The notes beneath the pieces were generated by a model that searched no databases, was not told the origin of the DNA, and was given only the letters and a program-made list of their open reading frames with translations. The translations under genes were made by a program, and so were the position numbers. Positions 56,129 through 61,704 of a stretch of 64,000 bases of DNA are shown piece by piece. The first letter of the stretch is position 1. Each line of letters begins with the position of its first letter. This stretch comes from Acidobacteriota bacterium (GTDB taxonomy: Bacteria; Acidobacteriota; Thermoanaerobaculia; Multivoradales; Multivoraceae). Where the stretch lies: NCBI GenBank assembly GCA_011525365.1, contig WTGQ01000002.1, positions 1,539,367-1,603,366 on the forward strand. Direction: 5' to 3'.

Positions 56129-56157
56129 TTGACACGCCGGCGCCCAGCGAGCACAAT
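56129..56157 (+). promoter_or_regulatory. Sigma70-type promoter of the AAA operon
   Basis: TTGACA (56129-56134) is followed by a 17-nt spacer and CACAAT (56152-56157), a near-consensus pair. The expected start near 56164 would leave only a few nucleotides before the leader ATG, so the leader may be read leaderless. Confidence 0.75.
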
Positions 56158-56167
56158 CCGCGCTTCC

Positions 56168-56260
56168 ATGACCCAATCGACGATCACACCGTCTCTGGTC
56201 AAGCCGCTGCACAAGCGGGGCGCGAAGCCCCGAATTCAGGACTGGGTGCCCATCGCCTAG
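56168..56260 (+). CDS. Short leader ORF upstream of homocitrate synthase (candidate leader peptide)
   Basis: Thirty codons, too short for the track as a separate [23 protein letters not shown] then [10 protein letters not shown] and TAG. It has three Lys (AAG) and two Arg codons in the second half, over a hairpin. There is no ribosome site, but it starts a few bases after the predicted transcription start. Leader-peptide attenuation has been reported for the Thermus hcs lysine cluster, which makes the same idea credible here. Coding status is unproven. Confidence 0.5.
56216..56232 (+). promoter_or_regulatory. Hairpin in the leader ORF
   Basis: CGGGGC-gcgaa-GCCCCG, 6 bp. It overlaps codons 17-22 of the leader ORF, next to its Lys codons, where ribosome movement would open it. 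Confidence 0.5.
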
Positions 56261-56281
56261 AGACCCGCAGCGACACTTCTC

Positions 56282-56312
56282 GGCCGGCCATCCAGTTCAG
56301 GATGCGCCGGCC
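56282..56312 (+). promoter_or_regulatory. Large hairpin before homocitrate synthase (attenuator-like)
   Basis: GGCCGGC-CATCC pairs with GGATG-c-GCCGGCC (12 bp, one bulged C, 6-nt loop AGTTCA). It ends 8 nt before the GGAGGA ribosome site. No U-run follows, so it may act on translation or as a Rho-linked element. Confidence 0.55.
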
Positions 56313-56336
56313 TTCGTGTATCTGGAGGAACCCTTG

Positions 56337-57497
56337 ATGCCCTCCCATCCAGCCATCATCGAGTCGACCCTGCGCGAAGGGGAGCAGTTCGCCAACGCCT
56401 TCTTCGACAGCGATCAGAAGGTGGAGATCGCGCGCCTGCTGGACGGGTTCGGGGTCGAGTACCTCGAGTTGACCTCGCCTGCCGCGAGCCGTGGCAGCCG
56501 GGACGACTGCGAACGGGTGGCGAACCTCGGGCTCCGCGCCAGGGTATTGACCCATACGCGATGCCATCTGGACGACGCCAGGCTGGCGCTGGAGACCGGC
56601 GTCGACGGGATCGACGTCGTGTTCGGCACTTCCCGTTACCTGCGGGAGTACTCGCATGGCAAGAGCATGGAGCAGGTGATCGAGACGGCGGTTGAAGTTG
56701 TCGAATACATCCGGTCGCACGGGGTCGAGGTCCGCTTCAGCACGGAGGACTCGTTCCGCAGCGACCTCGACGATTTGGTCCGGGCCTACCGCGCGGTCAA
56801 CACGGTGGGCGTCAACCGGGTGGGGGTCGCGGACACCGTGGGCGTCGCGACTCCCCGCCAGGTCTACGAGCTGGTGCGGCGGCTGCGACGGGAAGTCGAC
56901 TGCGACATCGAGTTCCACGGGCACAACGACACGGGCTGCGCGGTCGCCAACGCGTTCTGCGCGCTGGAAGCGGGCGCGACCCATGTCGACACGTCGGTCC
57001 TCGGAATCGGTGAGCGGAACGGAATCACGCCGCTCGGCGGGCTGGTCGCGCGTCTCTACGCCGAGGATCCCGACGGTGTACGCCGCCGCTACGACCTGCC
57101 GCTCCTGCGCGAGATCGAGAACTACGTTGCCTCCCTGGTCGAGGTCGACGTGCCGTTCAACAACTACATCACCGGCTACACGGCGTTCACGCACAAGGCG
57201 GGCATCCACGCCAAGGCGATCCTCAACGACCCGTCGAGCTACGAGATCCTGGATCCGGCCGACTTCGGGCTCGACCGCTACCTCCACGTCGCGCATCGCC
57301 TCACCGGCTGGAACGCGATCAAGTCCCGCGTCGAGCAGTTACGGCTCGATCTGAGCGACGCGCAGATCAAGGAGATCACGGCCCACATCAAGGCGTTGGC
57401 CGATGAGAAACCGCTCAGCCTGTCGGACGTTGACGCCCTGCTGCGCGGGTACCACACGGCGGAGCTGCTGCCCGCGGTGGCGGGAGCTGCCGGGTGA
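56337..57497 (+). CDS. hcs: Homocitrate synthase
   Basis: This enzyme condenses acetyl-CoA with 2-oxoglutarate to homocitrate, the first step of the alpha-aminoadipate route. ATG 56337 follows GGAGGA by 9 nt; the track's GTG is seven codons early. The 386-aa TIM-barrel has [64 protein letters not shown] and [14 protein letters not shown]. The order and wording match Thermus homocitrate synthase more than isopropylmalate synthase. HGHNDTG holds the metal His. It begins a four-gene operon. Confidence 0.9.
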
Positions 57498-58849
57498 CCG
57501 GGGCCGGTCGGCCGGCCGACATAGCCCGGACCTTCGCGCAGAAGGCGCTGGCCCGAGCCAGCGGCCACGAGTCGGTCGCCGTCGGCGAGATCGTCGACGC
57601 GCGGCCGGACATCGCCCTGAGTCATGACAACACGGCGCCGATCGCCGAAATCTGGCGGCAGTTCGGCCAGGACCGGGTCGCCATCCCGGAGCGGATTGCG
57701 GTCACCCTCGACCACGCTGTGCCGGCCCCGACCGTTCGGCACGCCCGGAACCACGCGGAGGTCCGCGCGTTCGTCGCCGAGCAGGGCATCGGCCACTTCT
57801 TCGAGGTCGGGCGCGGTATCTGCCACCAGGTACTGAGCGAGGAGGCGGTCGTGCTGCCGGGAGACCTGATTCTGGGTTCCGACTCGCACACGCCGCACTT
57901 CGGTTGGCTGGGGGCGTTCGGCGCCGGCGTCGGCCGCAGCGAGATGGCGGTGCTTTGGGCCACCGGCGAACTCTGGCTTCGGGTGCCGGAGTCGATCCGG
58001 ATCCGGCTCGAGGGCGTGCTCGGCGAATGGGTGACGACGAAGGATGTGGCGCTAACGCTGATCGGGGAACTGGGCGCTGGCGGCGCGCTGTACCGCAGCG
58101 TCGAGTTCGAGGGGCCGGCAATCGCGAGCCTGAGCCTCGACTCCCGGGCGGCGCTCGTCAACATGATGGCCGAGATGGGGGCGAAGAACGCGTACATGCC
58201 GCCGGACGAGGACGTCTTCCGGTATCTGGCCGAGCGGTTGCTGACACGTCCGGGGCCTCGCCCGGGTCGCGGGGCGGAGCCCGGTGAGAAGGTGGAGGCG
58301 GTCGCGGCGCGGCTGGAGAGGGGAGCGCTCTTTCCCGATCCCGGCGCAGCGTTCTCGGCGGAACACGTGCTCGATCTGGCGGCCGTCGAGCCCCGGGTGG
58401 CGCGGCCGCACCAGGTCGACGACACGGTCTACGTGGGCGAGCTCGAGTCGGTGCGGGTCGACCAGGCGTTCATCGGCACCTGCACGAACGGCCGGCTGGA
58501 GGATCTGGGCGCGGTCCATCGGGTGATGGCCGGACGGTGTACGGCTCCGGGCACCCGGATGGTCATCGTGCCGGCCTCCAGCGAGGTGTGGAACGAGGCC
58601 CTGGCGCGCGGCTGGGTGGCGGACCTGACCGCGTCCGGCGCCGTCTTTGGGACTCCGGGCTGCGGCCCCTGCATGGGAAACCATCTCGGCGTGCTGGCCC
58701 CGGGTGAGGTCTGCATCTCCAGCGCCAACCGGAACTTCCAGGGCCGGATGGGAGACCGCGGCGCGCAGATCTACCTGGCCTCTCCGGCGGTCGTGGCGGC
58801 GAGCGCCGTCGCCGGGCGGATCGTGCATCCGCGGGAGGTGACGGAATGA
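57494..58849 (+). CDS. lysT: Homoaconitase large subunit (LysT-like aconitase family)
   Basis: GTG 57494 overlaps the hcs stop (GTGA); the 451-aa product is cofactor-binding. The Fe-S cluster Cys are in [11 protein letters not shown] and GCGPCMGNH, and [17 protein letters not shown] is the family's SDSHT segment. It dehydrates and rehydrates homocitrate to homoisocitrate together with the small subunit. Leucine-pathway LeuC is related, but the hcs neighbour and the dehydrogenase type favour homoaconitase. Confidence 0.88.
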
Positions 58850-59364
58850 CCGGCCCGGTCGACGTCGCTCGACCCTTCCGCGGCCGGGTCTTCCGGTACG
58901 GCGATCACGTGAACACGGACGTCATTTTTCCTGGCCGCTACACCTACACGAAAAGCCGGCCGGAGGAGGTTGCTCCTCACGCCCTGGAGGACCTCGACCC
59001 GACCTTTGTCGAGCGCGTGCGACCCGGCGACGTGATCGTCGCCGGCTGGAACTGGGGCTGCGGCTCGAGCCGGGAACAGGCGGCGGTATGCCTGCGCTAC
59101 GCCGGCGTCGGCGCGGTAGTCGCGCGCAGTTTCGGGCGCATCTTCTACCGCAACGCTCTGAACAACGGCCTGCTCGCCATCGTTTGTCCCGAGGCGGTCG
59201 ATGTGCTGGAGGAGGGTGCCGACGTGGAGGTCGATCTCGATGGATCGGTGATCCGCCATGGCGGGACGAGCTTTGGCTTTGCACCCTTCGGTCCGGCCGT
59301 GCGCTCCATGATCGCGGCTGGCGGCCTGATCGAGCAGACGAAGCGCCGGCTGGCGGCGGGGTAG
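58846..59364 (+). CDS. lysU: Homoaconitase small subunit (LysU-like)
   Basis: ATG 58846 overlaps the large-subunit stop (ATGA). The 172-aa swivelling domain has [20 protein letters not shown] at the start and [18 protein letters not shown], the substrate-loop signature. It pairs with the large subunit for the isomerase reaction. Length matches the usual ~165-170 aa. Confidence 0.9.
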
Positions 59365-59371
59365 CGGCGGC

Positions 59372-60397
59372 GTGACGGAAAGCCGGGACGAGTCGGTGGC
59401 GCGGGTCCGCCTCGCCCGCATCGGCGGTGACGGCATCGGCCCGGAGGTCGTCACCGCCGCGGTACGGGTCGTCGACGCGGTCTGCGGCGACTGGATCGAA
59501 TGGGTCGAGGCCGAGATGGGCTGGCGGACCTTCGAACGCACGGGTCGCGCACTGCCCGAGGCCACGGTCGAGATCCTGGAGGGCTGTGCCGGCGCCCTTT
59601 TCGGCGCCGTTTCGTCGCCGAGCCATGCCGTGGCCGGTTACCGCAGCCCGATCGTCGAACTACGGCGACGCCTTGACCTCTATGCGAACGTGCGGCCGCT
59701 GAAGAGCGGCGCCATCGACGCCGTCGTCGTGCGTGAGAACACGGAAGGCTTGTACGCAGGCCGCGAACGTTGGGAACGGGAAGGCGAGGTCGCGATCGCG
59801 GAGCGCGTGATCAGCCGACGGGCGACGGAGCGGATCGTGCGCTTCGCCTGCGAGCTGGCCGTCACTCGGGCCTCCCAACGCGACATCCCGCCGCGGCTCA
59901 CCGTCGTCCACAAGGCGAACGTCCTGCGCCTGAGCGACGGCCTGTTCCGCGAGACGGCGCTCAAGGTCGCGGCTGGTTTCCCCGAGATCGAAATCGAGGA
60001 GCAACTCGTCGACTCGATGGTCTACCGGCTGATCCGGGAACCCGAGCGCTACGACGTGATCGTCGCGCCCAACCTCTACGGCGACATCCTGAGCGACGCC
60101 GGCGCGGCCCTCGTCGGCGGCCTCGGCGTCGTCGGCTCGGCCAACTGCGGCGAACGCTTCTGCCTCGCGGAGCCGGTTCACGGCAGCGCTCCCGACATCG
60201 CCGGCCAGGGAATCGCGAATCCCATCGCCGCCGTTGCCGCCGCGACACTGCTCCTTGAGCGAGTCGGTCTCGGCGACGCCGCGGCGCGCGTCGAGAAGGC
60301 CCTCGCCGAGCACCGGGCGGCTGGCCCTCGAACCCCCGACCGCGGCGGCGCCGCGACCACGGACGAGGCCCTCGCCGACCTGTTGGCCCGCGTCTGA
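59372..60397 (+). CDS. Homoisocitrate dehydrogenase (isocitrate/isopropylmalate dehydrogenase family)
   Basis: The start is GTG 59372, 7 nt after the small subunit stop. The 341-aa product has [26 protein letters not shown] and [15 protein letters not shown]. The NTEGLY form, rather than the LTGGIY of LeuB, points to homoisocitrate or isocitrate dehydrogenase. [13 protein letters not shown] carries the catalytic Lys, and [10 protein letters not shown] with [18 protein letters not shown] follows. It oxidises homoisocitrate to 2-oxoadipate. LysW-dependent later steps are not in the window. Confidence 0.88.
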
Positions 60398-60519: not shown

Positions 60520-61704
60520 TTGAGTAACTCCAGCCTCGCGGAGGCGATCGAGCAGGCTTGCCTGCGCCTTGAGGAGGGCAGCGTTCGGACCGAGGCGGAC
60601 GTACGGAACATCATCGTGAATCCGATCCTCGGGCGCCTCGAGTGGAACTTGGCGGATCCGGGCAGCACCAAGCGGGAGTATGCGGTCACTGGCCGGAAGC
60701 GCTTCTTCTTCGACTATGCGCTCCTGTCCGGCGGCGGTGCCGTCGCGGCCGTCATCGAGGCGAAGGCGCCGGGGCAGATGGACGAGAACGCGAGAGATCA
60801 GCTTCTTCTCTACGCGATGAAGACCAGCACGCAGGTTGGTCTGACGACAGACGGTCGCACGTGGGACTTCTACGTTCCGTTGGAGGGCGGTACTTCCGCA
60901 CAGCGGCTTGTACGGAGCGTCGATCTCCTGAAGGCCGAGGTCGAGGAAGCCGCTGGAGTCCTGGACCGCTACCTGGCGCGCGACAGGGTGCTCTCGGGGA
61001 AGGCCCACCGAGCCGCCGCGGACGACAGGGCACGCTTGGCGCTCCAGCGTCTTGTCGAAGCGGGCTGGTCTGATCTGCTCTCCGGCCCAAGCGACGAGAT
61101 CGTCAAGACCGTTGCCTCGGCGGCCAGGAGAGCCGGGAAGAAGGAAGGCCTGCCGCTTCCAAACGCTCGGTCTCTCAACGTGGTCGTGCGGTCCTTCGTC
61201 GGAAGGGGATTCTCGTTCGGGGAGCCCGCCGCCGACCTGGCCGCGCCTGCCGGTTCGCCGTCCGAGCGAGTCGTCGAGGCCGGCGGGAACCCGAAGGCGC
61301 CTTCCGCGCCCAAGGGAACCGCCGTCTGGACCTTCCAAGGCGAACGCCATGTCGAGACGAACCCGACGGATCTCTACGTAGCGGCGATCGGGCGCCTGTA
61401 CGAGTTCGTCGGGGACGAGGGTTTCTACCGGCAGCTTCGGGAGAAGATCCGAGGGCGCAAGCGGGCGCAGATCGCCGAGAGTCCCGAGGGAACCGGGGCG
61501 CCGAAGTACGTCCGTCCGCTTCCTGGCGGGTGGCATCTCAACACCAACCTCTCGACTCGCGACAAGCTGCGCAACCTGGAGCGTGCCTGCGAGGTTGCCG
61601 GCATCGCATTCGGCTCGGACCTCGTGGTCGAGAATGACGGGGAACGTGTAACCCGGAAGAGGATCCTGAGACCACGCGAGTCCGGACGCGCGCTTGCACG
61701 ATAG
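60520..61704 (+). CDS. PD-(D/E)xK nuclease protein with type I restriction HsdR N-terminal-like domain
   Basis: The 394-aa product starts at a TTG with GGAG about 10 nt upstream. The N-terminal domain (LEEGSVRTEADVRNIIVNPILGRLEWNL) resembles HsdR N termini. The PD-(D/E)xK core is FFDYALLSGGG...VIEAKAPG, the Asp and the E-x-K arranged as in restriction nucleases. A DYYV-like strand (TDGRTWDFYVPLEGG) follows. No helicase motifs exist, so this is not a full HsdR. A distinct C-terminal domain (NPTDLYVAAIGRLYEFVGDEG, YVRPLPGGWHLNTNLSTRDKLRNL) is unrecognised. It sits upstream of a HicBA pair. Confidence 0.75.
   Translation: MSNSSLAEAIEQACLRLEEGSVRTEADVRNIIVNPILGRLEWNLADPGSTKREYAVTGRKRFFFDYALLSGGGAVAAVIEAKAPGQMDENARDQLLLYAMKTSTQVGLTTDGRTWDFYVPLEGGTSAQRLVRSVDLLKAEVEEAAGVLDRYLARDRVLSGKAHRAAADDRARLALQRLVEAGWSDLLSGPSDEIVKTVASAARRAGKKEGLPLPNARSLNVVVRSFVGRGFSFGEPAADLAAPAGSPSERVVEAGGNPKAPSAPKGTAVWTFQGERHVETNPTDLYVAAIGRLYEFVGDEGFYRQLREKIRGRKRAQIAESPEGTGAPKYVRPLPGGWHLNTNLSTRDKLRNLERACEVAGIAFGSDLVVENDGERVTRKRILRPRESGRALAR

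Follow-up and report, generated by a model that had tools for sequence, protein, structure and literature searches.

The window analysed here, a stretch of 64,000 nucleotides (C1:1539367-1603366 of genome G000), belongs to the 4.2-Mb genome of a member of Candidatus Multivorans (Acidobacteriota, Thermoanaerobaculia), a sponge-associated lineage with Candidatus Multivorans thiocomprendens and other Thermoanaerobaculia/Holophagales metagenome-assembled genomes (MAGs) as near-identical named relatives. It contains a four-gene lysine operon headed by the homocitrate synthase gene hcs, preceded by a leader region (56129-56336) that probably acts as a transcription attenuator. The features of the leader and the operon, all on the plus strand, are as follows.

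56129..56157, + strand: promoter TTGACA-17-CACAAT, with 10 of 12 consensus bases; the sole sigma-70-type match in 700 bases (shuffle mean 0.0).
56168..56260, + strand: leader open reading frame (ORF) of 30 codons, with AAG Lys codons at 56201-56203, 56213-56215 and 56225-56227.
56216..56232, + strand: hairpin CGGGGC-GCGAA-GCCCCG inside the leader ORF, found by folding and largely retained in relatives.
56239..56248, + strand: putative antiterminator 5' arm GGACTGGGTG, encoding QDWV of the peptide and pairing with 56289-56298 in folds of a transcript truncated ahead of the terminator 3' arm.
56260..56281, + strand: inner antiterminator pairs found by folding, GAGA (56260-56263) with TCTC (56278-56281).
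56282..56312, + strand: terminator-type hairpin GGCCGGCCATCC-AGTTCA-GGATGcGCCGGCC of 12 bp (7 + 5 pairs with a one-base bulge), followed by the tail TTCGTGT.
56324..56329, + strand: ribosome-binding site of hcs, GGAGGA, read from the sequence.
56337..57497, + strand: hcs, homocitrate synthase (TIGR02146, 493.6 bits; cut-off 413.6; PF00682 and PF22617).
57494..58849, + strand: lysT, homoaconitase large-subunit family (TIGR01343, 480.9 bits; cut-off 385.7).
58846..59364, + strand: lysU, homoaconitase small-subunit family (TIGR02087, 178.3 bits; cut-off 109).
59372..60397, + strand: hicdh, homoisocitrate dehydrogenase-type enzyme (PF00180; best NCBIfam match TIGR02088, 344.6 bits, below the cut-off of 409.8).

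An earlier note on this DNA had proposed the row hcs-lysT-lysU-hicdh, and the family matches bear it out together with the gene junctions, which are 4-base overlaps at hcs/lysT and lysT/lysU and a 7-base gap between lysU and hicdh. The hicdh product belongs to the isocitrate/isopropylmalate dehydrogenase family and falls under all curated NCBIfam cut-offs; its substrate, and with it the name homoisocitrate dehydrogenase, is deduced from gene context. The near-consensus promoter, the 30-codon ORF with three Lys codons and an internal hairpin, and the 12-bp hairpin before the ribosome site described in that note were all recovered, the last of these being read here as a terminator. Downstream of the operon, an ORF at 60520-61704 gives a sub-threshold match to the N-terminal domain of type I restriction R proteins (PF04313, 22.9 bits).

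A genome search for the LysW genes, which the earlier note had named among its tests, retrieved lysW at C1:2478965-2479147 at the head of a complete second operon, lysW-lysX-lysY-lysZ-lysJ-lysK, located about 0.9 Mb from hcs. LysW, LysX and LysZ ([LysW]-aminoadipate kinase) score over their cut-offs, LysY is an argC family match, and LysJ and LysK, which lie under the strict equivalog cut-offs, were named by family and position. The window genome therefore holds the full set for the LysW-dependent aminoadipate pathway (hcs, lysT, lysU, hicdh, lysW, X, Y, Z, J and K). No full-length lysA over the curated cut-off was found in it (best 48 bits against a cut-off of 298), nor in 20 of the 21 genomes of the genus; G019 (C1:18971-20179, L128) is the only one with such a gene, and all three searched genomes of other genera in the same family have lysA over cut-off. 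No dapA over cut-off was found in the window genome either, where a DapA-family protein at C1:211563-212390 reaches 174.6 bits, under the dapA cut-off of 206, although lysA is absent. Because the lysW operon is complete, lysA is missing and DapA lies under its cut-off, the alpha-aminoadipate route is very probably the only lysine route in this genome. Homocitrate synthase (HCS) was found in just 3 of the 70 genera of class Thermoanaerobaculia.

The promoter is conserved as TTGAC...CA(C/G)AAT in the genus alignment of hcs loci. Transcription is predicted to start at about 56164, which would leave almost no 5' untranslated region (UTR) ahead of the leader ATG (about 4 nt; 56157-56168), and the leader peptide in the window may be translated from a leaderless mRNA; in other members of the genus the 5' UTRs are longer. 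Three Lys codons in the leader ORF of this one sequence are only modestly unusual (P of at least 3 in 29 codons = 0.022, at 2.1% Lys in the neighbouring proteins), so that comparative evidence was needed and conviction would have to come from relatives. Conservation of the leader ORF had been set beforehand as a test of the leader-peptide idea, and the ORF is present in 16 of the 20 aligned hcs loci of the genus, with a length of exactly 30 codons in all 16. Lys16 and Lys20 are kept in every one of these, and Lys12 in 13 (Arg replaces it once and Asp twice). A short ORF that carries codons for the product of the operon and is conserved in relatives in this manner has the properties expected of an attenuator leader. 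In the remaining four genomes (G011-G014; L016-L019) the leader ORF and the promoter region are lost and the upstream gene ends just 5' of the retained hairpin; G011 is without the lysW leader as well (L037).

The terminator-type hairpin is kept in all 20 aligned loci, with energies of -18.5 to -23.0 kcal/mol in the relatives, and in most loci of close relatives it is followed by TTTCTTGT or TTTTCTGT. The combination of a GC-rich hairpin and a U-run that marks intrinsic terminators is found in the lysW leaders and in most relatives, and the hcs leader of the window has the strong hairpin with a weak tail. The hairpin inside the ORF (56216-56232) is a possible pause or early hairpin; its counterpart in the lysW leader is weak or missing.

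A second short ORF lies upstream of lysW in 20 of the 21 genus genomes, encoding MRVLSTSASTAPLAKGHCHGAKRPGHDPG up to its stop codon in the window genome. The hairpin behind it has the same core as that of hcs, GCCGGCCATCCAG..GGATGaGCCGGC, with a good U-tract in most genomes, and the two sets of leaders have K...GAK and the terminator core in common. In the 4.2-Mb genome the terminator pattern has two sites and no more, one ahead of hcs and one ahead of lysW. Across 396 Acidobacteriota genomes it was found at 27 sites in 14 genomes of the genus, all of them before hcs or lysW, and the reversed pattern, run over the same 396 genomes as a control, gave 0 sites.

To assess the alternative structures, folds were computed for transcripts ended just before the terminator 3' arm, with a ribosome placed at chosen codons. 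With the ribosome at a Lys codon, the hcs leader forms a 10-pair outer helix GGACTGGGTG:CATCCAGTTC and the inner GAGA:TCTC pairs (-23.7 kcal/mol). Moving the ribosome to the stop codon abolishes this antiterminator (-1.4 kcal/mol). Its 3' arm, 56289-56298, lies within the terminator hairpin, making the two hairpins mutually exclusive. The same ribosome-dependent change was obtained for one Chloroflexota leader and for the lysW leader, where CTGGGTG:CATCCAG pairs around a conserved GAGAA..TTCTC hairpin, and neither of these two leaders has an antiterminator in the ribosome-free fold. Pairs to the terminator arm in the Multivorans hcs leaders number 13.7, against 8.2 in dinucleotide shuffles, with 5 of 7 loci at no more than 5 in 100 shuffles, and the antiterminator duplex reaches z = -2.4 to -2.7 in the close relatives L007, L005 and L006. 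The folding models are thus consistent with a choice between antiterminator and terminator that is set by ribosome position, with the lysW pairing at the level of shuffled sequences.

These observations support the leader-peptide attenuator proposed in the earlier note, by the conservation of the ORF and its Lys codons, by the folds of cut transcripts and by the restriction to lysine operons. We consider it likely that 56129-56336 is a ribosome-mediated transcription attenuator sensing lysine via charged tRNA-Lys, and that its second copy does the same for the unlinked lysW-X-Y-Z-J-K operon. Transcription would begin just 5' of the leader ATG and a ribosome would follow. When lysine is ample, the ribosome would reach the stop codon and cover GGACTGGGTG, allowing the GGCCGGCCATCC/GGATGcGCCGGCC terminator to form and transcription to end ahead of hcs. 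Under a shortage of lysyl-tRNA, the ribosome would wait at a Lys codon, leaving GGACTGGGTG free to pair with newly made CATCCAGTTC, and no terminator would form. Both lysine operons would be switched on under lysine shortage. We infer the translation of the leader ORF, the stalling, the termination and the response to lysine from these patterns of conservation and folding.

The leader has relatives in other lineages, which were collected as a wider set of 80 hcs loci, mostly from Chloroflexota, on which the spread within that phylum rests; in relatives known from MAGs, assembly errors are possible. In these loci, hcs is often the first gene of a large lysine cluster, and the leader consists of a Lys-rich ORF (for example one ending AKKRSKKQKPD before the stop), a region 2 (CTGTCTGGA) and a terminator with the loop-side arm TCCAGACAG. 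In 25 of the 51 hcs loci from outside Multivorans, a run of 8 codons with at least 4 Lys lies before the terminator (shuffle mean 0.12), and clusters of any other residue occur in at most 2 of the 51. Arginine was considered as the signal and rejected, its clusters (2 of 51) being at the shuffle level. Pairing in 18 Caldilineaceae/Chloroflexota leaders is extensive in four helices (111/126, 99/108, 137/156 and 163/174 paired cells), and reflects conservation more than covariation, as variation is low. Between lineages the arms change jointly, with CTTGGGTGA:TCATCCAAG in L074, TATCTGG:CCAGATA in L083 and GAGGATGC:GCATCCTC in G002. A covariance model, R1, built from those 18 leaders alone, with no Multivorans sequence, had the lysW leader of Multivorans among its top whole-genome matches, joined in several genomes by the full-length hcs leader. 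In the window genome it matches the hcs leader at 56284-56314 with 18.3 bits (E = 0.19 genome-wide), one of two matches at E of 0.5 or below. Two hcs loci, one in an Anaerolineales MAG (L084:171-424) and one in a Blastocatellia MAG (L096:588-880), have a pair of attenuators in tandem, both complete with a Lys-rich ORF and a terminator. G002, a genome of another Thermoanaerobaculia genus with HCS (L024, L046), has an ORF ending TKREEKKPLLN before hcs, a Lys/Arg-rich ORF and terminator about 280 nt upstream of lysW, and lysA as well.

Several results weigh against the attenuator. Variable sites in the leader ORF are spread flatly over the codon positions (17, 14 and 14 at positions 1, 2 and 3), so that the alignment by itself is no proof of translation, and codon-position counts were discarded for that use. 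There are only three Lys codons in 30, none in tandem, from which we predict a modest, less sensitive switch. The U-tract of the window strain, TTCGTGT, is poor, and a terminator scan of the window leader gives no match. The hcs antiterminator forms without any ribosome as well, and that of lysW is not above GC-matched shuffles (z of about 0.2), with 12.2 pairs against 9.1 in dinucleotide shuffles and no locus significant. Full-length minimum-energy folds prefer the terminator in every ribosome state, and the switch accordingly rests on the order of folding; a terminator that wins in the complete transcript is expected of a device that would act by synthesis order, and full-length folding was set aside as an uninformative test. 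Finally, the hairpin persists in four genomes of the genus whose hcs loci no longer have the leader ORF.

Some of these points would also suit an attenuator that has decayed in the genus or the strain, with the Lys cluster and the window U-tract eroding and expression near constitutive. The tandem Lys codons of Chloroflexota (KKRSKKQKPD before the stop) are here reduced to three scattered ones, the tail of the window terminator is TTCGTGT, and losses of the kind seen in G011-G014, in G011 extending to the lysW leader, would follow. However, the 30-codon length, Lys16, Lys20, the antiterminator arm and the terminator core are near-invariant in most of the genus, and most lysW terminators retain good U-tracts, which makes decay an unlikely account. 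Flat variation over codon positions, together with nucleotide conservation that runs beyond the stop codon in the lysW leader (GACCTGGTAGATCGAGAACGC), could instead point to a metabolite-binding riboswitch or a T-box-like RNA in which the ORF is incidental. The bases conserved after the stop are, however, accounted for by the antiterminator, Lys-rich ORFs stand at the equivalent place in 25 of the 51 relatives, and no Rfam family, L-box and T-box included, matches the hcs leader, the lysW leader or seven other relatives; we regard such an RNA as very improbable. Less probable still is a role of the inverted repeat at the DNA level, as the operator of a lysine-responsive repressor common to both operons, rather than as an RNA hairpin. 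The presence of the palindrome core ahead of the two lysine operons, its only sites in the genome, would fit an operator, but T-runs lie 3' of the repeat in most relatives, the repeat is nearly always 3' of a short Lys-containing ORF and away from the promoter, and its alternative pairing partner sits upstream in the transcript.

Ribosome-mediated attenuation is a known kind of control, and leader-peptide attenuation of the hcs lysine cluster of Thermus thermophilus was reportedly described by Tsubouchi and colleagues in 2005. That cluster resembles the present one in being an aminoadipate homocitrate synthase operon with a short ORF and an attenuator in front. At a plasmid-borne hcs locus of Deinococcus, the peptide MTALATASKKPTAPPG and its stop codon are followed by a 10-bp terminator-type hairpin and TTGTTTT; model R1 gave no match at this locus, and sequence homology to a Deinococcota leader was not found, as judged from the Deinococcus locus only. 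Compared with Thermus and Deinococcus, Multivorans belongs to another phylum and has two separate operons with one leader apiece, an hcs antiterminator arm within the leader ORF, and sparse Lys codons. The trp/his-type attenuators of Proteobacteria likewise combine cognate codons in a leader ORF with antiterminator and terminator hairpins that exclude each other, whereas here the signal would be lysine, not Trp or His, the window leader ORF has almost no predicted 5' UTR, and the 1:2 hairpin, clear in the Chloroflexota leaders, is weak in Multivorans. Among the hcs leaders of Chloroflexota (Caldilineaceae, Anaerolineae), one Armatimonadota and other Acidobacteriota MAGs, the nearest share the terminator core CCGGCCATCCAG..GGATGnGCCGG with Multivorans; they differ in their tandem Lys codons, better U-tracts, the frequent position of hcs as first gene of one large cluster, and the tandem attenuators at two loci. 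The lysine riboswitch (L-box) is similar in that it controls lysine genes in cis, and differs in that the Multivorans leaders are without an Rfam match; in a published survey the L-box governs diaminopimelate (DAP)-route and transporter genes (PMC5584792).

The HCS tree places the genus inside a 34-row clade (95/95) whose other members come from Caldilineaceae and a small number of further lineages, and Multivorans HCS is 75-81% identical to that of Caldilineaceae. Because of this placement and identity, and of the common terminator core, lateral transfer of the operon together with its leader is suggested, with an inferred direction. There is perhaps an even chance that a wider account holds, in which an attenuator family not in Rfam extends over Chloroflexota, Acidobacteriota, Armatimonadota and perhaps others, reached a sponge-symbiont lineage by lateral transfer together with the aminoadipate operon, and was copied there onto a second, unlinked operon. 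Two operons would then form one regulon governed solely by RNA in cis, the leader peptide being translated from a transcript with almost no 5' UTR.

What is new is the lineage, the two-operon layout and a family absent from Rfam, and a lysine attenuator switch has apparently not been described before in Acidobacteriota. To the earlier observation this analysis adds a second leader, ahead of lysW, the identity of terminator and antiterminator, and Chloroflexota relatives whose Lys codons are far clearer. A 2010 survey of premature terminators predicted attenuators in Acidobacteria of which almost none had an assigned function (PMC2965389). A specific gene set and a probable signal and mechanism can now be named for one Acidobacteria attenuator, for which a covariance model finds relatives. 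The family is a clean candidate for a cis-regulatory RNA that crossed phyla along with its pathway, and it offers a natural series of leaders, from rich tandem Lys codons to sparse to lost, in which the gain and loss of attenuator sensitivity may be tested.

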